43,714 bases of DNA from a virus. Every line of letters begins with the position of its first letter. The first letter of the stretch is position 1. The notes beneath the pieces were generated by a model, which was not told the origin of the DNA, made no database searches, and saw only the letters and a list, made by a program, of their open reading frames with translations. Shown here in pieces: positions 2,717-43,714 of the stretch. The stretch is from positions 1 through 43,714 of the IMG/VR virus record IMGVR_UViG_3300023171_000319. One strand, 5' to 3'. The position numbers and the translations under genes are program-made.

Positions 2717-2967
2717 GCCTGCGCCTCCATAGCGTCCAGCGTCTGCCGGGTGAGTTGCGCGGCCCCCAGCGACAGCATCCCGGTTGCTCGCATCCCGTCG
2801 ATGTTGCCCCACCCGTAGAGCACGATCTGACCGTCGATCTCAGCGACCGCGACCATGCTTTCGATATGCTCAATGTCCCCGCTGTCGATCTCGTCGGCCA
2901 TGCGGCGGAACTGCGCGGCGATGTCGTTGGCGGACACCTCGCGGAGCGGGACGACGTTAATGCTCAC
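2713..2967 (-). CDS. small hypothetical phage protein (YGWG type)
   Basis: This 84-aa protein contains ESMVAVAEIDGQIVLYGWG followed by a helical stretch with SLGAAQLTRQTLD. This layout is familiar from small uncharacterised phage proteins near lysis or accessory genes. It overlaps its neighbours on both sides by ATGA. Function unknown. Confidence 0.6.
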   Translation of the reverse strand: MSINVVPLREVSANDIAAQFRRMADEIDSGDIEHIESMVAVAEIDGQIVLYGWGNIDGMRATGMLSLGAAQLTRQTLDAMEAQA

Positions 2968-3488
2968 GCCGCGATCCTCGCCAGCCAGCCGTAAATAAAC
3001 GACCGGTTCGCCGCCCGACCCTCAGCAAGCTCGGCGTAGCGAGTCCCCTGGAAGGCGTTCAGGAGTGCAAGCAAGCGCGTCTCACCCTCCTTGCCGCGCC
3101 TCGACAGGAACGCCTTCAGAGCGGCCACTGACGCCGGCCCCACGTTGCCGTCAACCGCCAGCCCCGCATCCGTGACGAGGTTGAGCGCGCGCTGCAGGAA
3201 CCGACCCGCGACCGATGGCCCCATGTTCACGCCGGTGTCGACGAGCTCGGCCGCGATCGGGCCTGACACGTTGGCGACCAAGCCGAAGCCCGGGGCGATG
3301 ACGTACTGCCCGCGGTAGATCGCAAGCGCAGTCTCGCGCGACATCGTCTTCATGGATCCGGTGTAGCCGTTCGCACGCGCGGTCCCGACCGTGATGCCCC
3401 AGTTGGTTTCGCCGCCGCGATCGTTCGGGTCGTTCACGTAGCCGCCCTCGGCTTTCAGAACACCGGCTAGGATTTCGTCGATCGTCAT
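2964..3488 (-). CDS. endolysin, GH108 N-acetylmuramidase
   Basis: This is the peptidoglycan hydrolase that degrades the host wall at the end of the lytic cycle. The N-terminus has the GH108 signature EGGYVNDPNDRGGETNWGIT, with E14 as the probable catalytic acid. The C-terminal part (GLAVDGNVGPASVAAL and onward) matches the peptidoglycan-binding domain usually fused to this family. The length of 174 aa is normal. There is no signal peptide, so export depends on a holin, for which 2387-2716 or 3485-3913 are candidates. It is coupled to both neighbours by ATGA overlaps. Confidence 0.93.
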   Translation of the reverse strand: MTIDEILAGVLKAEGGYVNDPNDRGGETNWGITVGTARANGYTGSMKTMSRETALAIYRGQYVIAPGFGLVANVSGPIAAELVDTGVNMGPSVAGRFLQRALNLVTDAGLAVDGNVGPASVAALKAFLSRRGKEGETRLLALLNAFQGTRYAELAEGRAANRSFIYGWLARIAA

Positions 3489-5930: not shown

Positions 5931-6379
5931 AGGGCTGTCCCATAATTGAAGACCGACGCGGCAACTGTTGCGCTGGCTGTCGCTCCGCTGGCGTCGGTTA
6001 CGGTGCAGATGAACGTGTCCTCGGCGCTGTCACCGCCGACGATGAACGCGGAAAATCTCGTGACCGCGGCCGAGGGGGCTATCGCTGTCATCGCTCCGTC
6101 TTGAGATACCCAGGCGAACCCGAACGGAGCGACGCCGCCCGTAGTGGAAGCCGTGGCCTCGTTGGTTACAGCGTTGGCGCCATTCGATTTGCTGACCGCG
6201 CCGGTTACAGCGCTAGGCGATATCGAAACTGTGAATGTGGGCGCTGGCGGCTGCGTCGGAGTCGGGTCGCCCGCAGGATCGCGCGCCTCTACAAGCACCG
6301 GAACCAGCATGTTCGCTGCGTTCCGGACCATCATCTGCACTTCGACAAGCGCGCCGGCCAAGTTGCGAATGCTCATCAT
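5927..6379 (-). CDS. Ig-like (PKD-type) virion decoration or adaptor protein
   Basis: This 150-aa protein has an N-terminal helical part (SIRNLAGALVEVQMMVRNAA), a Pro-rich linker (GDPTPTQPPAPTFT) and a C-terminal beta-sandwich. The last ends in the pattern DTFICTVTDASGATASATV, typical of Ig or PKD folds. It lies between the head-binding adaptor and the spike, so it may connect them or coat the tail. The start at 6379 is chosen because it makes an ATGA overlap with the upstream gene; an in-frame upstream ATG is possible. Confidence 0.65.
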   Translation of the reverse strand: MMSIRNLAGALVEVQMMVRNAANMLVPVLVEARDPAGDPTPTQPPAPTFTVSISPSAVTGAVSKSNGANAVTNEATASTTGGVAPFGFAWVSQDGAMTAIAPSAAVTRFSAFIVGGDSAEDTFICTVTDASGATASATVAASVFNYGTAL

Positions 6380-6966
6380 GCCGGCTTCAGCCACAGATCG
6401 CCGGGCTGGCTGGTCGGGTCCGTCGTGTTTTCGGGACCGAACACGCGGAAGTGCGTGTACGCAGGGTTCACGTAATAGGCGTGGGCGCCAGCGCTCTGAC
6501 GAAGGATATCACCACTGACGGTCCCGCCCACCGCTGGGAGAGGATCGGGAATCCCGGTAGCCGACCGAAGCGCGGCCTGGTTCGCGAGCGTGAGAAGCGC
6601 GCGACCGTAGGCCGTCGTTGCCAGCGCGGCGATAGCCGATAGATCGGTATCGAGGGGCTGAAACTCTGCGTCCGTGCTCGTCAGCGTTGGCGAGTAGTCG
6701 ACCAGGTTGCCGTCCGCATCGCGTGTTCGCATCGAGAAATTGGTCGGCGCGAAATAGATCGACCCCGGGTAGGCGCCGTTCACGACCCGCCCACCGCTGG
6801 TGCGCAGCGGTTGCGTCGCGGGAACGGTCAGAGCCGTATCCCAGAATACGGGGATCGGGTTCGTCTCAGGGTCCTGCCCTGCTACACCGATGTAGATATA
6901 CCCGGCGTCCAGCAACGCGCCACGCAGGTCCAGAAACAGCGGGATGGGGTTGGTGAGTTTCGTCAT
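6376..6966 (-). CDS. P22-like head-binding tail adaptor
   Basis: The first 95 residues resemble the P22 tailspike head-binding domain: NPIPLFLDLRGALLDAGYIY, then GVAGQDPE, PIPVFWDTALT, QPLRTSGGRVVNG and MRTRDADGNLVDYSP. This domain attaches receptor-binding proteins to the portal and tail hub. The C-terminal half (about 100-196) differs and may be the docking surface for the next proteins. The anchor is therefore on a separate polypeptide from the large spike at 4383-5930. It overlaps both neighbours by ATGA. Confidence 0.8.
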   Translation of the reverse strand: MTKLTNPIPLFLDLRGALLDAGYIYIGVAGQDPETNPIPVFWDTALTVPATQPLRTSGGRVVNGAYPGSIYFAPTNFSMRTRDADGNLVDYSPTLTSTDAEFQPLDTDLSAIAALATTAYGRALLTLANQAALRSATGIPDPLPAVGGTVSGDILRQSAGAHAYYVNPAYTHFRVFGPENTTDPTSQPGDLWLKPA

Positions 6967-12412: not shown

Positions 12413-12954
12413 CCCGCCCGCCTGGCCACCATTCCCAGCTTCAGGTAGAGCCCCTTTGGCGGCACACCCCCAGCCCCAGCCGCATCATCATCGGCGTATT
12501 CAGCTGCTTCCAAGATAACCCGGTTCAACACGGCATCGTTCACCACCGGCGCCGCGAGCGTCTTATTCGCCAGCGTCTCCGCGCCGTCCAGCGTCGCCAA
12601 CGCCCCGCCGAGTGGCAATACAACCGCCGTGTCACCTTGCGCGGTCAGATCGACTCGGAACCCGCCCGCGACATGCGCGAACCGATCGTCGACCGATAGC
12701 GTCAGGTTCGTCCCGTCATCGAGCGCGCGGATACCGTCGCCGAGCTTTAGCACCCGCTCGTTGTTGAACGTCGCGTTTGGCGACAGGACCAACACCGTTG
12801 CGTCCTGCAGCGCTTCCGTGGCGCCAACGTTGATGCCGATCGCTTCCTGCGTCTCGGATACCGCCTTGGCCTGCTGTTCGAACGCCGTGACCAAGCGGCG
12901 ATCGCCGAGCGCCTTGAACAGCGCTTCCCGGTTGAGGGTTGGTGCAGTCGTCAT
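12409..12954 (-). CDS. virion protein in the P22 gp26 (tail needle) slot
   Basis: This 181-aa protein has an N-terminal helical stretch with a QQAKAVSETQEAIGINVGAT segment, a beta-rich middle and the motif DGAETLANKTLAAPVV, a sequence common in phage fibre and tail proteins. It follows the gp10-like gene, where P22 encodes the tail needle gp26. Sequence alone does not prove a trimeric needle. The start at 12954 overlaps the gp10 stop (ATGA), which excludes the longer in-frame start. Confidence 0.6.
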   Translation of the reverse strand: MTTAPTLNREALFKALGDRRLVTAFEQQAKAVSETQEAIGINVGATEALQDATVLVLSPNATFNNERVLKLGDGIRALDDGTNLTLSVDDRFAHVAGGFRVDLTAQGDTAVVLPLGGALATLDGAETLANKTLAAPVVNDAVLNRVILEAAEYADDDAAGAGGVPPKGLYLKLGMVARRAG

Positions 12955-14333
12955 GCGCTCAGGCCTCTCGCCGTCATCTCGCACGCCGCGAACCCCTGGA
13001 TGGCAGTATCGTAGCCGCGGAAGCGCATGCCGATATAGTTGCGGATCCTCGCATGCGGACGCCAGATGATGCGTCGTTGCCGTGCACCAGTCGCCCCGGT
13101 TGCTCGCGCCTGCTCCTGTCCGAACGTCTGGCCGTCCTGCGACACCGACAGGAACACCGTGCCAGCATCGCCCCGGGCAGGTAGTGCGACCAGCTCGACC
13201 AAATCAACGATCGCCGTCTTGCCGGAATTGTAGATCAGCCCGGTATCGAAGCGCCATTCTGCAGGCTCGCCGAAGTGCGTCGATACCTCCGATGACAACG
13301 TGCCGAGCCGCGTCGATTGCACGTCGCCAACCATCGTCCGGCCATAGACGTTGACCGCGTTGCGCGGGCGGTACGCGCCAGACTGAGCGGAGCCTAGGCG
13401 GTACCACACAGGCTCGCCTGCCGCTTCGGTCGCCTTCGCCATGAAGCACCACGTCTCTTTGGCGAGGTGGATCAGGAGCCGAAGTTCGTCGCGCGATACG
13501 CGCCGCTCGAGAACGATCGCGGTCGGGTCCACTTCTGCTGACAGCGCGTCATCGACCTCGCGCGTGCTGATCTTGCTCGCACTGGCGCTGCCGGCAACAT
13601 AGACCCCAAGGGCATCGCCGCGGGACGATCCGACGAACGCGAAGGTGTTGCCGAACAGGCATTTGGCAGACGCCGAAACGCAGCCGGTGTTGATCAACGC
13701 GCCGCCGACGTTGACGAACGGGAAGCCGCTGCCGCCCTGGTTGTCGAAAAACTGGATCGTGTAGCGGTTCAGTACCGCCGCCTCGTTATTAACACGGATC
13801 AAGCCGGTGATCGGGTCGGGGTCCGATTCCGCCGAGCCATATTTGAGCGGCTTCACCTGCAGCGGATCGGCCAACTCGGTCACGACCACGAATTTTCCAT
13901 CTGTCGCCATAGTGTAGCCGGCGATCCAAATCGCGTCGATGATCAGCCCAAGGTCCGGATCAGTGACCTGCGTCAGCGCCGATCCGTTCCAGTAATACAG
14001 ACGGGTGCCGCTGCGGACGATCAGCCGGTCGAACGAATAGTCGAGGCTGACCGTACCGCCGGTGCCGACGTTGCCGAGCGTCTTCACCACCCCGTTGGCA
14101 TCGATCGAGACCAGCCATTCGCCCATGACGCGGTAGCAGACGTCGTTCCAGTTGATGCCTCCGCGGTCGATACCCGGCCCGGTGCCGATCTGGACGGCGC
14201 CCGCGGCACTGCGTAGCTGGCCCTTCGATATACCGCTGTTGACGAGGACCGGCTCGAGATTGCGCGGATAGCTGACGACGAACTCGGCAGAGCGGTTCGT
14301 CGTAATGCCCGACAGAAGCGATACCTGGCTCAC
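12951..14333 (-). CDS. gp10-like packaged DNA stabilisation / tail hub protein
   Basis: This 460-aa protein matches the P22 gp10 family in layout: an N-terminal segment SGISKGQLRSAAGAV with GPGIDRGGINWNDVCYRVMG, then successive beta-propeller-like blades. It ends in WRPHARIRNYIGMRFRGYDT. Gp10 binds beneath gp4 and closes the portal after packaging, forming the hub for spikes. Gene order (gp4-like, then gp10-like) and ATGA overlaps support this. Confidence 0.9.
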   Translation of the reverse strand: MSQVSLLSGITTNRSAEFVVSYPRNLEPVLVNSGISKGQLRSAAGAVQIGTGPGIDRGGINWNDVCYRVMGEWLVSIDANGVVKTLGNVGTGGTVSLDYSFDRLIVRSGTRLYYWNGSALTQVTDPDLGLIIDAIWIAGYTMATDGKFVVVTELADPLQVKPLKYGSAESDPDPITGLIRVNNEAAVLNRYTIQFFDNQGGSGFPFVNVGGALINTGCVSASAKCLFGNTFAFVGSSRGDALGVYVAGSASASKISTREVDDALSAEVDPTAIVLERRVSRDELRLLIHLAKETWCFMAKATEAAGEPVWYRLGSAQSGAYRPRNAVNVYGRTMVGDVQSTRLGTLSSEVSTHFGEPAEWRFDTGLIYNSGKTAIVDLVELVALPARGDAGTVFLSVSQDGQTFGQEQARATGATGARQRRIIWRPHARIRNYIGMRFRGYDTAIQGFAACEMTARGLSA

Positions 14334-14782
14334 ACGCGGCCCGTGTAGGGATAGCGCCGGGTGTAGCGGTTACGACCAGCCCCGCGCACCGTGTTGCCGG
14401 GCAGCTGGGTCGTCGGGATCGTGGCAAGCTGCGACTGCATCGTCAGCAGTGACCGGCCCAGCGCCTTGGTGGCTTCAGGCGAGAGTGTCCCGCCCATGCC
14501 CGGTGCGATCCTGAGCGCCAGATACTGCGCCACCGCGTTGACCGCGAAATCGGGTATGCCGGATTGCTCTTCGGGCAGGCCGGCACCGTACGATGGCTGC
14601 GCGTACGTCAGCAGCGACCAGGGCTGCTCGAGCATGAGCGCGTTCAGCTTACGCAGCGCGGCCGACTGCTCCTCCGGCGTGCGATCGAAGGCGAAACCAG
14701 CAGCCCCGCAATCGTCGAACGCCATGTCGAGGATTTCGCTCTTGAGTTTGCCGCCGAGGGGGAGGGATAACGTGATCGTCAT
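14330..14782 (-). CDS. gp4-like tail accessory factor / head-tail connector
   Basis: This 150-aa, mainly helical protein contains EILDMAFDDCGAAGFAFDRT, then EEQSAALRKLNALMLEQPW and PDFAVNAVAQYLALRIAPGM. This is the pattern of the P22 gp4 tail accessory family that extends the portal channel. The basic Arg/Tyr tail (GRNRYTRRYPYTGRV) is unusual and may contact DNA or gp10. It is coupled at both ends by ATGA overlaps. Confidence 0.88.
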   Translation of the reverse strand: MTITLSLPLGGKLKSEILDMAFDDCGAAGFAFDRTPEEQSAALRKLNALMLEQPWSLLTYAQPSYGAGLPEEQSGIPDFAVNAVAQYLALRIAPGMGGTLSPEATKALGRSLLTMQSQLATIPTTQLPGNTVRGAGRNRYTRRYPYTGRV

Positions 14783-15321
14783 GAGGCAGCCGCATCGCTA
14801 CGAGCGACCGCGATCAGCGAGAACCGTGTCCCGACCACGCTCGCCGAGAACAGATTGAAGACCCCGCCAAGCAGGAGGCTGACGAGGTTCTGCGGGACCG
14901 TCTGCGATCGCCAGATCCGCACCACGCAACCTGTGAAGGCTGCGGCCGGGGCATTCGGCAGAAGCGCGGTTGGCCCCTTCGTCCACGCCACCACCTTGCA
15001 GTTTGTCGGCTGCGCGTTCGCGTCCGTGTCGCTGGTGGGCGGCGTTGTGGTGTTCGACGTCGCGGGAAGCTCCTGGTAATCGATTCCCGGCTCTGAGATG
15101 AAGCTACGTGTGAACGCGATCGCCGCGGTGTTGCCGCTCGCTACCGTGCCGACGACGACGCTGGTCAGCCGCGGGTGGGCGTGGCCGTCCATGCTGAACT
15201 TCTGCGGATCTGTACCGGCGTTGCCGCCTGTCGCTTCGCTGGCTGGCGTAGCGCTTGATGGCTTCGGGATCGCAGCCAGCAACGTCGAGGGGTCGACGGG
15301 GGTGTACGCGACGCCGCTCAT
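14779..15321 (-). CDS. hypothetical virion protein upstream of gp4
   Basis: This 180-aa protein has a Ser/Thr/Ala-rich N-terminus (AIPKPSSATPASEATGGNAG), a DGHAHPRL turn often found in phage fibre proteins, and a beta-rich C-terminal half. It precedes the gp4-like gene. The start overlaps the stop of a 16-codon mini-ORF (15318-15368). Role unknown; a head or tail accessory is likely from position. Confidence 0.6.
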   Translation of the reverse strand: MSGVAYTPVDPSTLLAAIPKPSSATPASEATGGNAGTDPQKFSMDGHAHPRLTSVVVGTVASGNTAAIAFTRSFISEPGIDYQELPATSNTTTPPTSDTDANAQPTNCKVVAWTKGPTALLPNAPAAAFTGCVVRIWRSQTVPQNLVSLLLGGVFNLFSASVVGTRFSLIAVARSDAAAS

Positions 15322-15368
15322 AACCCGCGGCCCGCCACGCTGATGATTAGGGCGACTCGTTTGCTCAT
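15318..15368 (-). CDS. 16-codon mini-ORF before a structural gene
   Basis: The frame encodes MSKRVALIISVAGRGL and its TGA overlaps the ATG of the next gene. It may be a coupling leader, or the residual start of a gene removed when the SGNH segment entered. It is too short for a family call. Confidence 0.3.
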   Translation of the reverse strand: MSKRVALIISVAGRGL

Positions 15369-15377
15369 ATCAGGTCA

Positions 15378-15414
15378 CGGCTCCGCACAATCAGCTGGAG
15401 CGGTGCCGGAGCCG
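15378..15414. repeat. imperfect stem-loop in intergenic region
   Basis: CGGCTCCGCAC (15378-15388) pairs with GTGC-CGGAGCCG (15403-15414) through 11 pairs with one bulged C; the loop is 14 nt. It lies in the 216-bp non-coding gap between the membrane SGNH gene and the mini-ORF. It is not followed by a T-run on the minus strand. Confidence 0.5.
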
Positions 15415-15431
15415 CGTTACTCGACTCATGC

Positions 15432-15460
15432 ACAATAAGCTAAGCGAGCGTGTTTGTCAC
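15432..15460 (-). promoter_or_regulatory. candidate sigma-70 promoter for tail genes
   Basis: On the minus strand GTGACA (15460-15455, 5 of 6 to TTGACA) and TATTGT (15437-15432) are separated by 17 bp. It would restart transcription of the gp4/gp10 group downstream of the SGNH segment. The rest of the gap 15369-15584 holds only the stem-loop and no convincing gene. Confidence 0.45.
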
Positions 15461-15584
15461 GCCCAATCCCTTCGCCAGCTATGCTAGTGTTCGAGCACTT
15501 CTTCCCGATAGGCTCCCTTCGCCGCCTGCGATGCCTGTGGCTAGCAAATAGGATGCGGTCATGACGCTACTTTCTTCGTTTGAG

Positions 15585-16247
15585 TTAGGGCATATTCCGC
15601 CGCAACTTCTCCGCCCAAATATTGTAGGCGGCTTCAGTGAAGTGCGTCCCATCAGTCGTGTACTCAGGTTTGATCACACCATTGGCTGCTAGTTCGGGCC
15701 AAAGGTCAATAACGCGGACGCGGGTGCCGCTCAGCCGGTTTGCAAGCGCGGCATCCAACCGACGCGTTCTAGCCGATCGCACGGGGTCTTTGTTCGGTGG
15801 GGCTAAGGTCACAATAACTCGTGCACCTGACGCTAACAGTGAATGGATGTTTGCAAGTTGATCGCGCAGCGACTGCTCATCCGTTATACGATTAGTCCCC
15901 GCGTCGTTCGTTCCCGCCATGTACGAGATGGCTCTGGGCTTGAAGCCCCACTCCTGCCAATTCGTCAGCGGCTCCATCTGCCATGCCATGAAGCCCGAAC
16001 GGGCTTTCGTAACCGCCGAAAACGGGTTGCTAGATATGCGACTGCCCCATGGCGCACCTTGGACCGTCAAGCTGTCTCCAACCAGCACGAGCACTGGCGG
16101 AGAAAATATGGCTTGTCGTTCAGCGATACTCGTGACCAGCGCCCCACGTGTATCGCGCGATAACATTGCGGCGACGCCAACGATTGATGACGACATCACA
16201 ACAGCACCGAGAGGTATCGCCCACAATCTTCTACGACGCATAATCAT
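15585..16247 (-). CDS. membrane-anchored SGNH/GDSL hydrolase
   Basis: This 220-aa protein has a basic N-terminus and one hydrophobic helix (about residues 8-29), so it is probably anchored in the inner membrane with the enzyme in the periplasm. The SGNH blocks are complete: S59 in VGDSLTVQG, G85 in RSGF, N114 in AGTNDA, and D199/H202 in DGTHF. The family removes acyl groups from sugars, lipids or peptidoglycan. Two sequence lines I counted are only about 50-55% GC, below the flanking virion genes, and the gene interrupts a virion gene order. Both suggest a transferred accessory gene. Its ribosome binding site lies in a small hairpin. Confidence 0.85.
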   Translation of the reverse strand: MIMRRRRLWAIPLGAVVMSSSIVGVAAMLSRDTRGALVTSIAERQAIFSPPVLVLVGDSLTVQGAPWGSRISSNPFSAVTKARSGFMAWQMEPLTNWQEWGFKPRAISYMAGTNDAGTNRITDEQSLRDQLANIHSLLASGARVIVTLAPPNKDPVRSARTRRLDAALANRLSGTRVRVIDLWPELAANGVIKPEYTTDGTHFTEAAYNIWAEKLRRNMP

Positions 16248-16255
16248 TCATCAGT

Positions 16256-16272
16256 CCTCGCATAAATCGAGG
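16256..16272. repeat. small hairpin over the SGNH ribosome binding site
   Basis: CCTCG and CGAGG flank a 7-nt loop. In the leftward mRNA the 3' arm contains GAGG, 8 nt before the ATG at 16247, so folding would hide the ribosome binding site. The stem is only 5 bp. Confidence 0.35.
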
Positions 16273-16303
16273 GATCATAGACGAACCACCGCCAGGACAC
16301 ACG

Positions 16304-17671
16304 TCATGAAACCTTGCGGACCTCGATTGCGCCGATATCGATTTGCGCAGCGCCAGCGGTTGTCTGATACGACCAACGAACGTCGATAGATTGTTCGACG
16401 CCGGTAAGCGTGATTACGTCGTCGATAACGTGTTTGCCGGTGTAGGCGTTTGGCATAGCCAAGTCCGCAGCATTGTAATTCACGGTGGCGAAGTTTCGGC
16501 GCTCCTCCAAGAGGTTGCCGCCAGACGCAGCATCGTATGTGCCAATTCGGAAATCGCACGACGTCAGTCCCGATGCACCACTCACAACGGTATCGGCCGT
16601 CGCCACGATTTTATCGCCCGCGACGAGGCCCGCAGGAAGCGCGATACGGCGCAGGCAGTTGCCAGTGGTGTCACCCGTCAAAACGGCACGCTGCCACCAC
16701 CCTAAGCCGCCATCGGTACGGGCCACCTTCGAGAAAAGGGAAGTGCCGCCGCCCGCGCTTTGAGTTGCCGTTATTCCGTCAGCGACGACGCCACTTGCGC
16801 CGGTTCCGACAAGAGGCCCACCCGTACCGAACATGATACCTCCTCGGATCATAAGATTGCCGGTCGGGCTGCTGGTAGCATCAAACGCGTCGCTATAGGC
16901 GTAACCGCGATATGGCGACCGCGTTGCTAACGTATTGAAATAATCGGCCAACGCTCGATCGGCCCAATATGCGCCGGTTGGTGTGGGATGGAGACCGTCG
17001 TAGAAGTAGCCCGCGAGTTGCTGGCCGGTAGTGCTGGCCGGATCAACAAGCGCCGCCCAAGGGTCGATCACGACGACATCGTAAAGCGGGGCTGTATCCG
17101 TGATCCAACGATTGATCTGGATGCCACGCGAGGCATTACCCGCTGTCCACGTCGACAGAAGCCGGGGCATATTGAGGCGCTGAACCGGAACGATTCCCAT
17201 ATTTCGTAGGGTTGTCCAAACCGTGACTAGATCGGCTTTGATCTGGACATCGGTACGGTTAGTCGACGACCCGCCACCCGGCTGAATGTCGTTGGTGATG
17301 CTATCGATTACAGCGTGCGTTGGCTTGGCGTTGCCCGATGCGACCAGCGCGACAAGCTGTGGAATTTGAGTGCTGATCACATCAACGAGGGTCGTGCTCG
17401 AAACGCCAAAGTTGTACGCGACGGGCGAACGAACTCGGCCCTGCGTCAGGAATGGCAGCCAAGCGCTAAGGCCCCACGCTCGTTTCCACACCGAATTATA
17501 GTTCGCACCGTTCACGGTCCGTGGCGTGATGAGCTTCCCTTGTGCGACCATGCTGTGGCCTAGGCAGGCAACGAGCGGAGACGCCGATGATCTCGCCCGC
17601 GCCACCGAATCAACAACCGCACCAACTGTCGAAGCCGCGGCAAGCTCAGCAGCGAAGGTCGTGTCGGCCAT
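16304..17671 (-). CDS. SGNH hydrolase with C-terminal beta domain (virion esterase candidate)
   Basis: This 455-aa protein has SGNH blocks with a non-standard first motif: S40 in CLGHSMVAQG (GHS rather than GDS). G89 follows in NFGVSS, N127 in SITNDI, and D225/H228 in DGLHPT. Residues about 250-455 form a separate beta-rich part resembling a carbohydrate-binding jelly roll. There is no signal peptide. Within the virion operon, such enzymes can act as deacetylases of surface polysaccharide on tail structures. The start at 17671 is supported by overlap with the preceding stop (TAATG). Confidence 0.85.
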   Translation of the reverse strand: MADTTFAAELAAASTVGAVVDSVARARSSASPLVACLGHSMVAQGKLITPRTVNGANYNSVWKRAWGLSAWLPFLTQGRVRSPVAYNFGVSSTTLVDVISTQIPQLVALVASGNAKPTHAVIDSITNDIQPGGGSSTNRTDVQIKADLVTVWTTLRNMGIVPVQRLNMPRLLSTWTAGNASRGIQINRWITDTAPLYDVVVIDPWAALVDPASTTGQQLAGYFYDGLHPTPTGAYWADRALADYFNTLATRSPYRGYAYSDAFDATSSPTGNLMIRGGIMFGTGGPLVGTGASGVVADGITATQSAGGGTSLFSKVARTDGGLGWWQRAVLTGDTTGNCLRRIALPAGLVAGDKIVATADTVVSGASGLTSCDFRIGTYDAASGGNLLEERRNFATVNYNAADLAMPNAYTGKHVIDDVITLTGVEQSIDVRWSYQTTAGAAQIDIGAIEVRKVS

Positions 17672-17826
17672 TATGTGTAGCTCCGCAGGACGTAGCCGCC
17701 CGACGCGTTGCGGACATTGCCGCCCGAGGCGTTCAGGACTGTCTGGATAGGCACGTCGCCGCCGTTCTGGACCAGCTGTCCCGGCGCGATCGGCCAACCG
17801 TTCGTAATGGCCCTCGACCGCCTCAT
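17671..17826 (-). CDS. 51-aa protein with NASGG repeats
   Basis: It starts MRRSRAITNGWPIAPGQLVQ and has two copies of NASGG near its C-terminus, a pattern typical of small structural or fibre-linked phage proteins. It overlaps the upstream gene by ATGA and the SGNH hydrolase by TAATG, so all three are coupled. Function unknown. Confidence 0.55.
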   Translation of the reverse strand: MRRSRAITNGWPIAPGQLVQNGGDVPIQTVLNASGGNVRNASGGYVLRSYT

Positions 17827-18191
17827 GGGATGCGGCTCGCGGTCACGTAGAGCCCGGTCGGCGTGCCGGTCACAGCAAGCCGCAACTGCGCGGCCGATCC
17901 GAACCCGGCCGATAGCGTGGTGTTCGCAGAGAACGGCGTCAGGGCCGTGCCGTCCGCCTTGGTCAGGTCGGACCATGTCGTGCCGTCAGCGTCGAGGAAC
18001 TGCAGCTTGGCCGTCGCGCTGTTCCAGTTGGTCGCGAACGCGCGCACGACGTAATCGCCGCCGTATGCTGTCACTGGGGGCTGGTTGCCCGCAGCCGACA
18101 CGTTGCTGGCGAGGGTGAGGGTTTCCTGGCGCGCGCCGACCGAAGCTTTGTACCCCAACCCGGTTTGCGGGTCGATTAGAACGACGTCCAT
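17823..18191 (-). CDS. hypothetical virion protein, beta-rich
   Basis: This 122-aa protein starts MDVVLIDPQTGLGYKASVGA. Its pattern (VVRAFATNWNSATAKLQFLD and DGTALTPFSANTTLSAGFG) suggests a single beta-sandwich, as in head decoration or fibre-adaptor proteins. It lies just downstream of the hairpin terminator at 18208-18227. Function not recognised. Confidence 0.55.
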   Translation of the reverse strand: MDVVLIDPQTGLGYKASVGARQETLTLASNVSAAGNQPPVTAYGGDYVVRAFATNWNSATAKLQFLDADGTTWSDLTKADGTALTPFSANTTLSAGFGSAAQLRLAVTGTPTGLYVTASRIP

Positions 18192-18233: not shown

Positions 18234-18689
18234 TCACAGGTCGCTGATGCTGGTCAGGTCGTTCGTGTACGAAGGCCCGCCGCCCGGCAGTTCGTCGGCC
18301 TTGAGCTTCAGGCGCTTCATCGCGGCCTTGACGTAAGGCGTGCGGTTCTGGCCGTTGCGCTCGAGCGCCAGCAGGCCGTAGACCTTCTCGTCGGGCACCG
18401 GATCGACCTTGTTCGAAGCCGACACCCGCTCTTCGAATGCTTCGACGCCGAGATCGAGGAGATACGCCCACGGCTGGATCTCGTCCGAGCCATGCCACTG
18501 GCGCTTGGGGGTCTCGCCTGGCAGGTTGCCGTCCGTCAGTGCGCGGTGCACGTCCTTGGCGGCGTCCTTGATGTCCTCCTTGGCGCCATCCTTGCGCGCC
18601 GCGGCGATCTCGGCGTCGGACAGCTGCAGTCCATCGGCACCGTTGTCCTTGAGGTTCTGCTCGGCGGGGTTCTTGGTGTTCGTGGCCAT
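18234..18689 (-). CDS. hypothetical protein following the coat gene
   Basis: This 151-aa hydrophilic protein has an acidic/basic helical first half (LSDAEIAAARKDGAKEDIKD) and contains KRQWHGSDEIQPWAYLLDLG and ERNGQNRTPYVKAAMKRLKL. It shares the coat transcript and sits before the terminator. A head-stabilising or capsid accessory role is possible from position only. Confidence 0.55.
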   Translation of the reverse strand: MATNTKNPAEQNLKDNGADGLQLSDAEIAAARKDGAKEDIKDAAKDVHRALTDGNLPGETPKRQWHGSDEIQPWAYLLDLGVEAFEERVSASNKVDPVPDEKVYGLLALERNGQNRTPYVKAAMKRLKLKADELPGGGPSYTNDLTSISDL

Positions 18690-31566: not shown

Positions 31567-31931
31567 TATGCCGCGACCTGCTGGTCGGCGGGCTTGCGGG
31601 GCTTGGCGGCGTTGTGATGAATGTTGAACAGCCTGTGGCCCAACCGGGAGAACAGCCCGATCATCTGGGACTCTCTCTCAAGGGCAGCGGCTTCTGTCGT
31701 TTGTCCGATCAGCGCGACCATCTCGACGTCGCTGGTGTTCAGCCAATTGGCGAATGGACTGCTGCTGCTGGACGCGCGCTTGGCGTTTGCCCGGTGCGAC
31801 TCCAACCGCCTCACAGGGTCTTTGCTGAAGCCGACATAGCGGATCTCGATCGACCCAGCTTCGCGGAGCAAATAGACGTGGTAGCCTTGCGGCATCGCGT
31901 CCGTCAGCAGCATGGCGTCAATGTCGATCAT
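31566..31931 (-). CDS. GIY-YIG endonuclease
   Basis: This 121-aa protein has the GIY-YIG core near its N-terminus: YHVYLLREAG (17-26), IRYVGFSKDPVRRLESH (30-46) and a later acidic helix with ALERESQMIGLF. The glycines of the classical motif are changed (HVY/RYVG), as in many phage versions. There is no DNA-binding extension, so it could be a homing nuclease core or a host-DNA degrading enzyme. It lies directly downstream of the Cro-like gene, overlapping it by ATGA. Confidence 0.85.
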   Translation of the reverse strand: MIDIDAMLLTDAMPQGYHVYLLREAGSIEIRYVGFSKDPVRRLESHRANAKRASSSSSPFANWLNTSDVEMVALIGQTTEAAALERESQMIGLFSRLGHRLFNIHHNAAKPRKPADQQVAA

Positions 31932-32155
31932 GCCGCTGCCACCTGCTCAACAGGTGCCTTGCGCGGCGTGATGGCGAGCAAGTCGCTGACCCCGACCTTG
32001 CCGCGGGTGGCCTCCACGATCTTCACCGCCAGCGGCAGGGACGGACGACGTTGACCGTATGCAATCTTGCGGATGGTGCTGCGGGGCTGACCAAGGCGAT
32101 CGGCGAAAGCCGAGACCCCTTCTTCGGTCGCGCGGAGGTGGTCCAGAAGCGTCAT
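31928..32155 (-). CDS. Cro-like helix-turn-helix regulator
   Basis: This 75-aa protein has a helix-turn-helix at about 14-36 (VSAFADRLGQPRSTIRKIAY) followed by GQRRPSLPLAVKIVEATRGK. This is the pattern of Cro/YdaS-type regulators. It is the first gene of the leftward lytic operon and faces the repressor gene. A perfect operator-like palindrome (32165-32181) lies 10 bp upstream of its ATG, so binding there would block its own expression. AAGG precedes the ATG at 32155. Confidence 0.85.
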   Translation of the reverse strand: MTLLDHLRATEEGVSAFADRLGQPRSTIRKIAYGQRRPSLPLAVKIVEATRGKVGVSDLLAITPRKAPVEQVAAA

Positions 32156-32164
32156 AACCTTGAC

Positions 32165-32181
32165 GTACCCCATCCGGGTAC
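32165..32181. promoter_or_regulatory. operator-like palindrome between cro-like and repressor genes
   Basis: GTACCC-CATCC-GGGTAC is a perfect 6-bp inverted repeat. A plus-strand TTGACG (32160-32165) abuts it, and AATAAT (32194-32199) lies near the repressor start. It is a likely binding site for the repressor and Cro-like protein. A clear leftward promoter was not found. Confidence 0.65.
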
Positions 32182-32197
32182 ATCGAACAAGCAAATA

Positions 32198-32614
32198 ATG
32201 TGCCCTACTGGTGGCCTTGGCTACGCAGCCTTTCCTTGCAAAAGCGCGTCCGTGCTGCCCAACAATATCGCCTCTTACCGCAAAGCGGCCAACTTGACGC
32301 AGGTTGGCCTTGCGGAAGCGATCGGCACGACTCGAAGCATGCTGGTGAAGCTGGAGCGCGGTGAGCGCCCACTGACCGGTGAGTGGCTAGAGAAGATCGG
32401 GAGTGCGGTAGCGGTATCACCGCATCTTCTTATCGCACCGCCCGACGCGCTTCCTAATGAAGAACAGTTGGGGCAAATGCTTGCGTCTGCGCAGCAATCA
32501 TTGCCAGCGGGGCTGCCCTATTCCGAATGGCCTCGAGCTGTTGCTTCAGAGTTGCACATGCGGCTTCGCACGCTTTCAGGTGATCGGACCAGTGACGATA
32601 CCCAGGCGAACTGA
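32198..32614 (+). CDS. XRE-family phage repressor (short, no protease domain)
   Basis: The protein has an XRE helix-turn-helix (IASYRKAANLTQVGLAEAIG, then TRSMLVKLERGERPLTGEWL) and a short helical C-terminal part. There is no LexA-like S24 peptidase domain, so RecA-driven self-cleavage is not encoded. It probably maintains lysogeny. The ATG at 32198 gives 138 aa; the GTG at 32252 (120 aa) fits the usual family N-terminus better. Neither has a good Shine-Dalgarno sequence. An ATG start could be leaderless if TTGACG at 32160 is the -35. Confidence 0.82.
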   Translation: MCPTGGLGYAAFPCKSASVLPNNIASYRKAANLTQVGLAEAIGTTRSMLVKLERGERPLTGEWLEKIGSAVAVSPHLLIAPPDALPNEEQLGQMLASAQQSLPAGLPYSEWPRAVASELHMRLRTLSGDRTSDDTQAN

Positions 32615-41514: not shown

Positions 41515-41735
41515 CGAGGCCGTGGCCTAAAATGATGAAGCGCGGAACCGCAGCCGCCTACTGCGACCTATCGCCTGCCAAGTTCATGCAGGAGGTCGCA
41601 GCCGGTCGCATCCATCAGCCCGTGCCGTTCGGCGGTGAGGACCACTGGTGCATCGACGATCTTGACGAGGACGTTCGGCAGTTGACCGGGCGCGCCTACG
41701 ATTGGCGGAAGGAGCAACCGGGTCTTGCCGCCTAA
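41511..41735 (+). CDS. excisionase-like helix-turn-helix protein
   Basis: This 74-aa basic protein has MKRGTAAAYCDLSPAKFMQE and AAGRIHQPVPFGGEDHWCID, which fit an AlpA/Xis-type winged helix. It directly precedes the integrase gene, overlapping it by 11 bp. It probably directs excision. No independent evidence. Confidence 0.72.
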   Translation: MTRPWPKMMKRGTAAAYCDLSPAKFMQEVAAGRIHQPVPFGGEDHWCIDDLDEDVRQLTGRAYDWRKEQPGLAA

Positions 41736-42735
41736 GCAGTTGCCTTGGATCAAGCACGTGCGCTCGAAGGGCCGCGACTATTATTATTTCGACACCGGCA
41801 AGATGGTCGGTGGAAAGAAGGTGTTCGCGAAACTCCCGCATATCCATGAGCCGGAGTTCGCGCGGGTCTATGCGACGCTCAGGGGTCACAGAACGCGAGC
41901 GACCAAGACGGTTGACCGCGGTGTGACGATTCCGGTGCTGGTTGATCTATATCAACGCGGCGACAAATACGCCGAACTGGCAGCGAACAGCAAGCGGCTC
42001 TACGATCTGTATCTGACCCGGCTGGGCGCGCTGCTGCCAACCGCGCCCGCGCGGGCGATCGAGCGGCACGACATCCTGTTGCTCTTCGACAAGATGGGGA
42101 AGACGCCGGGCGCCGCAAATATGTTTCTAGCGTCGTCGGGAGCGATGTTCAAATGGGCCAAGGACCGCGGCTACATCGATCGCAACCCCTGCGACGACAT
42201 CACGCCACTGAAGGTCGGCGAGCACGATCCTTGGCCGACGCCGGTTCTCGTGGCCGCGCTGGCAAGTGACGAGCCCCGCGTTCGGCTCCTAACCCACCTT
42301 CTCTACTACACCGCCCAACGCCTTGGCGACGTTCTTAAAATGACATGGGCCGACCTGCGTGGCGACCAGCTATTCGTTCGCCAGCAGAAGACCGGCAAGG
42401 AGTTGCTGATTCCACTCCATAGCGCGCTGCGTGCCGAGTTGGCAGGCGCGCCCCGTGCCAGCCTCCTGATCGTCACCGCGGGTCGCGCGAAGCCTATGGC
42501 ACAGGTCACAGCCCGTAAGGCGCTCAAAGACTTTGCTGCCACGCTCGGCGCAGATGTGGTGCCGCACGGCCTCCGCAAAAACGCCGTCATCGCCCTACTC
42601 GAGGCCCGGTGCAGCGTGGCTGAGACGGCAGCCATATCGGGCCAGTCGCTTCGCCTGGTCGAGTATTACGCGCGGCAACGGAACCAGCAAACACTAGCAT
42701 CTGCGGCGGTGCTTTCATGGGAGCGGAACGGATGA
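41725..42735 (+). CDS. int: tyrosine-family phage integrase
   Basis: This 336-aa recombinase has an N-terminal arm-binding region, a core-binding SAM-like domain (about 68-160) and a catalytic domain. Catalytic residues are R199 (TAQRLGDVLKMTW), a lysine near 222-225 (QKTGKEL), H281 and R284 (VPHGLRKN), and Y314 or Y315 (LVEYYARQ). The usual second histidine is Q307 (ISGQSLRL), a change seen in some subfamilies. Translation appears to start at TTG 41725. It defines the right end of the prophage; no att repeat is recognisable in the 79 bp to the next gene. Confidence 0.92.
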   Translation: MPPKQLPWIKHVRSKGRDYYYFDTGKMVGGKKVFAKLPHIHEPEFARVYATLRGHRTRATKTVDRGVTIPVLVDLYQRGDKYAELAANSKRLYDLYLTRLGALLPTAPARAIERHDILLLFDKMGKTPGAANMFLASSGAMFKWAKDRGYIDRNPCDDITPLKVGEHDPWPTPVLVAALASDEPRVRLLTHLLYYTAQRLGDVLKMTWADLRGDQLFVRQQKTGKELLIPLHSALRAELAGAPRASLLIVTAGRAKPMAQVTARKALKDFAATLGADVVPHGLRKNAVIALLEARCSVAETAAISGQSLRLVEYYARQRNQQTLASAAVLSWERNG

Positions 42736-42814: not shown

Positions 42815-43714
42815 TCAGTACTGGTCGTGCAGCGCCTGCTCGCCCAGCACGGTCGCGCCGAGTGGGCCGGCGTTGCCGCCCAGTGAAGGCGGCACGATGT
42901 AACTGTCGGTCAGCGTGACCTCCGGCAGCGCGACATAGCCGCCCAGACTGCGCGTCATCGCGGCGCGGATCCGCGGAAAAAGGTGTGAGGCATTCATGAC
43001 GCCGCCGCCCATCACGATCCGCCGCGGAACGCCCGTCAACACCAGCGTGTGAAGCAACTGCGCCAGGGCATGCGAAACCCCGTCCCATACCGGGTGATCC
43101 GCCGGAGCCTCATCGGCCGGATGGCCGATCCGTGCGGCGATCGCCGGGCCCGCAACCAGTCCCTCCAGGCAGGCACCATGGAACGGGCAATTGCCGATCC
43201 AGTCGTCGCCCGGCGCGCGGACCGGCCGGATATGCCCGAGTTCGCTGTGGGTCAGGCCGTCGATGGGGCGGCCCGCGGCGATCATGCCGACCCCCACGCC
43301 GGTGCCGACCGTGACATAGGCCATGTCGGCCAGGCCCTTGGCGGCGCCCCAGCGTGCTTCGGCCAGCGCGGCACCGACGACGTCGGTGTGGAAGCCGGTC
43401 GGTACGCCGTACCGCCGCTGCAACCAGCCAGCGATGTCGGTACCCGCCCACCCTGGCTTGGGGGTCGAGGTGATATGGCCATAATCGCCGGCATGGCGGT
43501 CGATCGAGACCGGGCCGAAACTGGCAATGCCCAGCGCGACGAAGCCGCTCCAGCGATCGAGCACCGCCTCGATCGCCGCCAGCGTCTCGTCGGGCCGCGT
43601 GGTCGGGATGCGCACCGTCTCTTCGATCGCATCGGGGCCGCGCGCCAAAATGCAGATGCACTTGGTGCCGCCGAGTTCGATGCCGGCAATCAACGGGGCC
43701 TCGGTCATGCGCAT
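42815..43714 (-). CDS. ROK-family sugar kinase (fructokinase-like), host gene
   Basis: This protein of about 299 aa has an N-terminal phosphate loop IAGIELGGTKCICIL, a YVTVGTGVGVGMIAAGRP ATP-binding segment, ELGHIRPVR and a zinc motif GNCPFHGACLEGLVAG, typical of bacterial fructokinases. It phosphorylates a hexose using ATP. The gene is convergent with int and is the only clearly chromosomal gene here. The ATG lies at the window edge; a second ATG at 43708 is equally plausible. The C-terminus ends EQALHDQY and could be altered if the att site overlaps it. Confidence 0.9.
   Translation of the reverse strand: MRMTEAPLIAGIELGGTKCICILARGPDAIEETVRIPTTRPDETLAAIEAVLDRWSGFVALGIASFGPVSIDRHAGDYGHITSTPKPGWAGTDIAGWLQRRYGVPTGFHTDVVGAALAEARWGAAKGLADMAYVTVGTGVGVGMIAAGRPIDGLTHSELGHIRPVRAPGDDWIGNCPFHGACLEGLVAGPAIAARIGHPADEAPADHPVWDGVSHALAQLLHTLVLTGVPRRIVMGGGVMNASHLFPRIRAAMTRSLGGYVALPEVTLTDSYIVPPSLGGNAGPLGATVLGEQALHDQY

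Follow-up and report, generated by a model that had tools for sequence, protein, structure and literature searches.

Two adjacent SGNH hydrolase genes of a P22-like temperate phage as probable acquired cargo of an exchangeable slot among its head genes

Why should a phage place two hydrolases of the same class side by side among its virion genes, only one of them with a hydrophobic N-terminus? The question is raised by IMG/VR virus record IMGVR_UViG_3300023171_000319, analyzed here as a single stretch of 43,714 nucleotides (the window), in which two SGNH genes, termed SGNH1 and SGNH2, follow the coat gene. The initial annotation, made from the letters alone, had read them as an attack and exclusion pair, with one enzyme acting in the virion on host capsule and the other, anchored in the membrane, remodeling the surface of the lysogen.

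RESULTS

Genomic setting of the SGNH genes

The minus-strand genes of the window encode a terminase, portal, scaffold, P22-type coat protein, gp4-like adaptor, gp10-like closure protein, ejection proteins, and a GH108-type endolysin, while a tyrosine integrase encoded on the plus strand identifies the phage as temperate. The window ends on gene boundaries and includes a ROK kinase gene (42815-43714), as expected of a provirus cut from a host contig. The kinase is at most 60% identical to proteins of the family of Novosphingobium, and prophages with coat proteins 60% and 46% identical reside in Novosphingobium and Sphingobium; judged by these sequence relationships, the host is likely a sphingomonad. 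At 31928-32614, divergent small HTH proteins resemble, by eye, a Cro/repressor pair, which fits a temperate phage. Furthermore, the product of a minus-strand gene at 6376-6966 has a weak PHROG match to tail fibres, and its N-terminus resembles, by eye, the P22 tailspike head-binding domain; with the genes for 155 and 515 amino acids downstream of it, the phage seems to own a separate main adhesin.

Both SGNH genes were confirmed as adjacent open reading frames on the minus strand, and both products matched Pfam family PF13472 (Lipase_GDSL_2) above the cut-off (4.9e-10 for SGNH1 and 1.3e-12 for SGNH2). Their assignment to a virion operon likewise held, with genes for coat, gp4-like, gp10-like, portal, scaffold, and terminase proteins on either side, all on the minus strand. 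For comparison, 49 coat relatives from viral contigs were used; these and further loci are labeled by L-numbers. The relevant features of the window are as follows:

2964-3488, minus: endolysin, lysozyme-like (GH108-type)
12951..14333, minus: gp10-like head closure/stabilisation protein (PF11134, PHROG_578)
14330..14782, minus: gp4-like head-tail adaptor (Ad3; PHROG_637)
14779..15321, minus: g180, slot protein with homologues in L014, L019, and L023
14783..18233, minus: exchangeable cargo slot, from the g151 stop codon to the gp4-like (Ad3) start codon
15322..17671, minus: low-GC3 island comprising both SGNH genes and the 263-base noncoding gap 15322-15584
15585..16247, minus: SGNH2, 220 amino acids, one N-terminal hydrophobic helix followed by a complete SGNH domain; predicted esterase, either exported or anchored in the inner membrane
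16304..17671, minus: SGNH1, 455 amino acids, SGNH domain (about 30-250) and beta-rich C-terminal half; predicted virion-borne esterase
17823..18191, minus: g122, slot protein with a homologue in L014
18725..20026, minus: P22-type coat protein (PF11651, 2.2e-97)
41725..42735, plus: tyrosine integrase (PF00589, PHROG_1)

The SGNH genes occupy an exchangeable slot

A blastn comparison with the nearest relative, L002 (coat 95-96% identical), revealed homology as far as position 18234, where the g151 stop codon has its final base, and again from 14783 on, where the gp4-like gene starts. In place of the intervening 3.45 kb, L002 has unrelated cargo. Among the relatives, the cargo between the coat and gp10-like genes differs: SGNH proteins are encoded in L006, L011, L023, and L043, and by PHROG assignment in L014, other slots hold a GH30 protein (L013), a LamG protein with a weak nucleoside-hydrolase match (L002), or a weak SASA match (L018), and further relatives have large slot proteins without assigned function. 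Glycan-active enzymes (SGNH, GH30, LamG) are thus a repeated element of the varying cargo. A common N-terminal opening, M-x-V-R-L-L ... G-x-A-D-D/E, is present in several slot proteins of differing type and may represent a virion anchor. The SGNH1/SGNH2 pair was found neither in L002 nor in the other coat relatives, a presence/absence pattern characteristic of morons; because of this absence and the exact replacement in L002, the pair is not ancestral, contrary to the refuting case named in the initial annotation, a pair ancestral to all related phages and uniform in composition.

The two genes stand out in composition: GC3 is 0.60 in SGNH2 and 0.63 in SGNH1, whereas the remaining structural genes listed have values of 0.70-0.88, and codon usage deviates with z values of -4.5 and -2.5, respectively. 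Genes g122 and g180, located directly outside, have normal composition, so that the two SGNH genes and the 263-base gap form one island, and joint acquisition of SGNH1 and SGNH2 can fairly be inferred from the sequence. The initial annotation had described a lower GC content for the SGNH2 segment; the low value itself was reproduced, but it is not special to SGNH2, and a foreign composition of SGNH2 alone was ruled out by the low GC3 of SGNH1. The gap following SGNH2 (15322-15584) contains a GC-rich inverted repeat, CGGCTCCG...CGGAGCCG, and is unusual for a tightly packed operon.

Taken together, the slot is most likely a hypervariable region in the head-gene cluster, with SGNH1 and SGNH2 as acquired cargo. 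One study placed the morons of P22-like phages 5′ of the tailspike gene and reported no others within the morphogenetic cluster (PMC2629481), which makes a slot for cargo behind coat a noteworthy feature of this group. Like the Ant moron of these phages (PMC2629481), the cargo consists of variable nonassembly genes inserted in the late operon, but it lies between coat and gp4 rather than at the known site.

SGNH1 resembles virion-borne polysaccharide esterases

The catalytic blocks of SGNH1 are complete (GHS, G38-H39-S40; G89; N127; D225-x-x-H228), and a test for the Ser, Gly, Asn, and His residues of blocks I, II, III, and V identified S40, G89, N127, and H228. No hydrophobic stretch or signal was found at the N-terminus. 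Structure prediction, which had been proposed for both proteins, yielded SGNH folds in either case; the SGNH1 model is of moderate confidence (pLDDT of 63.5) and features the SGNH domain and a beta-rich part at about 290-454, in line with the original description as an enzyme without a signal, with a GHS first block and a C-terminal beta domain. In a fold search, the neighbors of the catalytic half were GDSL esterases and acetylxylan esterases, and the phage structures nearest to the model were the tailspikes Moo19 gp82 and B2 gp48/49, for which esterase activity has been measured (PMC11654681). The SGNH domain aligned to 9d81 with a Z score of 17.8 and an rmsd of 3.3 over 193 residues and to 9d84 with a Z score of 16.7, a relation at the level of the fold only. 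Full-length shape matches in BFVD were phage GDSL proteins, several of which are labeled as a tail fibre, an esterase, or a minor capsid protein.

No sequence relative of SGNH1 was found in the PDB, and a direct pattern scan of viral contigs gave no close relatives; an alignment-based search of these contigs retrieved three loci. In the Caulobacter phage Kuura, a relative of SGNH1 is encoded directly after the capsid gene. PHROG_6102 matches SGNH1 over almost its full length, including the C-terminal half (1.6e-32). This profile comprises lipases of Pseudomonas phages such as nickie and phiK7B1, which differ from SGNH1 in sequence (about 25-30% identity) and belong to other virion types. The N-terminus of SGNH1 has no virion-anchor segment, whereas the homologue in L011 possesses an extra N-terminal segment of the type common to other slot proteins. 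A 51-codon open reading frame (17671..17826, minus) begins with MRRSRAITNGWPIAPG, and its stop codon overlaps the SGNH1 start codon (TAATG). Its GWP motif also opens slot enzymes in L014 and L023, and the frame possibly encodes a split-off anchor peptide.

SGNH1 is thus ordinary slot cargo, closest in kind to virion tailspike esterases. From family, fold, and position, it is probably a virion-borne appendage esterase that strips acyl groups from the host surface polysaccharide at adsorption. With the esterase tailspikes of Schitoviridae (Moo19 gp82, B2 gp48/gp49, and G7C gp63.1) it has in common an SGNH-fold esterase among virion genes, but SGNH1, a predicted virion protein, is devoid of the long spike and anchor, and its gene neighbors that for the coat in a P22-like phage. 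The available text of a study on Klebsiella prophages (PMC13123978) describes SGNH receptor-binding proteins as common, two of them being active esterases. These resemble SGNH1 in their temperate phages, the SGNH domain, and presumed capsule deacetylation, but are tail fibres, and an exported SGNH partner is not reported in that text.

SGNH2 is a predicted exported esterase

SGNH2 starts with MIMRRRR, followed by a hydrophobic stretch (residues 11-29, KD of 1.99) and a helical linker; a V-A-A site lies near the end of the hydrophobic helix, which may serve either as a membrane anchor or as a cleaved signal peptide. All four catalytic blocks are present, namely, GDS (S59), G85, GTND (N114), and DGTH (D199/H202), the block test identifying S59, G85, N114, and H202, so that the view of SGNH2 as a complete GDSL enzyme with an N-terminal hydrophobic helix is upheld. 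In the model (pLDDT of 88.7), the SGNH domain is well predicted, and its nearest folds are PAF-acetylhydrolase, sialate O-acetylesterase, and PatB. A beta or spike-like domain is absent, and the layout is that of exported cellular GDSL enzymes. As SGNH2 alone has a hydrophobic N-terminus, different locations continue to be predicted for the two enzymes, and export of SGNH2 by its N-terminal helix to the periplasmic face or beyond is likely.

The sole close viral relative of SGNH2 is encoded in L068/L080; it is 42% identical over the SGNH domain and has its own N-terminal helix. In E. coli phage vB_EcoP-683R2, a more distant relative adjoins a P22 tailspike, and others adjoin AT3 O-acetyltransferases in Vibrio phage ZF14_PE001 (gene order repressor, AT3 acyltransferase, SGNH, integrase), L070, and L079. 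These neighbors point to surface glycans as the target, and an envelope glycan is slightly favored as the substrate of SGNH2. In contrast to the AT3-containing surface-acylation loci, with their small exported SGNH proteins, the window has no AT3 gene, and SGNH2 is part of the late operon. A simple hydropathy scan of the open reading frames in the window gave no many-helix AT3/MBOAT partner; an acyl-carrier partner may be encoded by the host. A direct pattern scan of viral contigs gave no close relatives of SGNH2, subfamily scans with SGNH2 and the L068 protein gave no further members, plasmids gave no match, and 397 genomes of the family of Novosphingobium gave only generic exported GDSL enzymes of about 30% identity. 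By these searches, SGNH2 is scarcer than SGNH1-type cargo.

The pair recurs in a distant phage

In L068/L080, a distant P22-like phage whose coat protein is only 27% identical, the gene for the SGNH2 relative adjoins a 361-codon SGNH gene without a signal in the gene run after coat, and both genes again have low GC3. In L080, the exported SGNH gene is located on the strand opposite to the late genes. This recurrence lends new support to a matched pair, as which the two genes had been annotated; a matched function of SGNH1 and SGNH2 is possible. The pair was seen in two phages, the second of which was located via SGNH2 itself. A co-occurrence test on slots counted by hand, two of nine slots with an SGNH cargo gene versus none of 31 slots without one, gave a weak result (P of about 0.05, post hoc, with one case found via SGNH2). 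An analogous virion-plus-exported layout with other enzymes is seen in the slot region of L013 (11521-15740), where a GH5 cellulase-family gene with a clear signal peptide overlaps the end of a spike-type GH30 gene.

Signal-peptide-like N-termini also occur on small slot proteins without enzyme domains (L002, 5568-6044; L007, 9818-10411), which rules out the idea that every exported slot protein is a spike-matched enzyme. The L002 protein has a domain 75% identical to a slot protein of L006 that is without a signal, and a hydrophobic N-terminal stretch is consequently no proof of a nonvirion role.

Among 5426 E. coli genomes, an exported SGNH protein is encoded in 31, exactly those with a tailspike allele of at least 99% identity. 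The receptor-binding part of this tailspike is present in 43 genomes, 12 of which are devoid of the exported SGNH gene; these are the 12 genomes with the 97-98.5% version (0/12). An obligate linkage is hereby ruled out: the E. coli SGNH gene is linked to the tailspike but not required. In E. coli prophages, e.g., ON470594.1 (37961-41016), the exported SGNH gene is positioned between tailspike and integrase, and its annotated start leaves out the signal peptide.

DISCUSSION

The reading that we prefer, at a probability of roughly 0.4, is a swapped virion deacylase combined with an exported envelope esterase that alters the surface of the producing cell. SGNH1 in the virion would deacylate the host surface polysaccharide during adsorption. 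SGNH2 would be made along with the late genes, carried by its N-terminal helix to the periplasmic face or beyond, and there deacylate an envelope glycan of the producing cell. As a result, the deacylated cell, its debris, and co-infecting relatives would display less of the receptor form used by the virion. That SGNH2 is functionally matched to SGNH1 is a tentative part of this proposal.

Timing is what separates this proposal from lysogenic conversion, in which SGNH2 expressed from the prophage would alter surface acylation of the lysogen such that related phages no longer adsorb, with SGNH1 attacking in the virion. The phage is temperate, O-acetylation by Sf6 confers superinfection immunity (PMC9558356) and provides a precedent, AT3 genes adjoin SGNH2 relatives in L070 and L079 and stand between repressor and SGNH genes in ZF14_PE001, and the L080 relative, being on the opposite strand, needs its own promoter. 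SGNH2, however, runs in the direction of the late genes and lies 56 bases behind SGNH1; GAGGA is a plausible ribosome site, and a scan limited to sigma-70-type promoters found none upstream; a terminator scan detected no terminator belonging to the SGNH1/SGNH2 cargo. These sequence features favor late expression, and with it a function as the infection ends, over one in the lysogen, although the latter gains some plausibility from the opposite orientation in L080 and from the AT3 contexts. A many-helix AT3-like protein, moreover, was not found in the window, and a comparable exported SGNH gene is optional beside one tailspike in E. coli, which speaks against the exclusion role once suggested for SGNH2. 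We consider lysogenic conversion rather unlikely; of the attack and exclusion pair, the likeness of SGNH1 to virion-borne polysaccharide esterases is supported and the expression of SGNH2 in the lysogen is not. A literature search returned no paper combining lysogenic conversion, acyltransferase, SGNH, and prophage.

Late expression would also suit a lysis helper acting on periplasmic targets (phospholipid or the O-acetyl groups of peptidoglycan) to ease the work of the GH108-type endolysin, and PatB is among the fold neighbors of SGNH2. Yet SGNH2 shares the cargo slot with the adjacent SGNH1, at a distance of 12 kb from the lysis gene, it is absent from the nearest relatives, and members of its family adjoin spikes and O-acetyltransferases, not lysis genes, all of which renders such a function improbable. 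Still less credible is that SGNH2, its hydrophobic N-terminus notwithstanding, is part of the virion or serves in assembly: the L002 and L006 domains offer a parallel, but its exported-enzyme layout without a beta or spike-like domain argues against it. Finally, SGNH2 might be a passenger, brought in when the slot was exchanged and not tied to SGNH1 by selection. The hypervariability of the slot, the occurrence of the pair in two phages only, the optional gene in E. coli, and the common foreign composition, which may reflect a single transfer, are in accordance with a passenger; the intact catalytic motifs and the recurrence in a phage with so distant a coat protein are less so, and we regard it as an unlikely explanation.

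A broader version of the preferred reading, which we advance as a doubtful extension, is that one exchangeable slot of this P22-like group houses matched pairs (SGNH/SGNH here and in L080, GH30/GH5 in L013), in which a virion enzyme modifies the glycan of the host during entry, while an exported enzyme of the same chemical class modifies that of the producing cell before exit, as a phage counterpart of receptor-destroying enzymes. With both enzymes in the same slot, host-range switches would exchange both halves together. In any case, the slot is a cheap source for mining glycan-active enzymes directed against sphingomonad exopolysaccharides. Deacetylases of virions and modifiers of the lysogen surface are known separately; a linked, exchangeable pair would couple adsorption with a change of the receptor within one cassette and, if true, would make it testable how polysaccharide-binding phages avoid sticking to their own producing cells.
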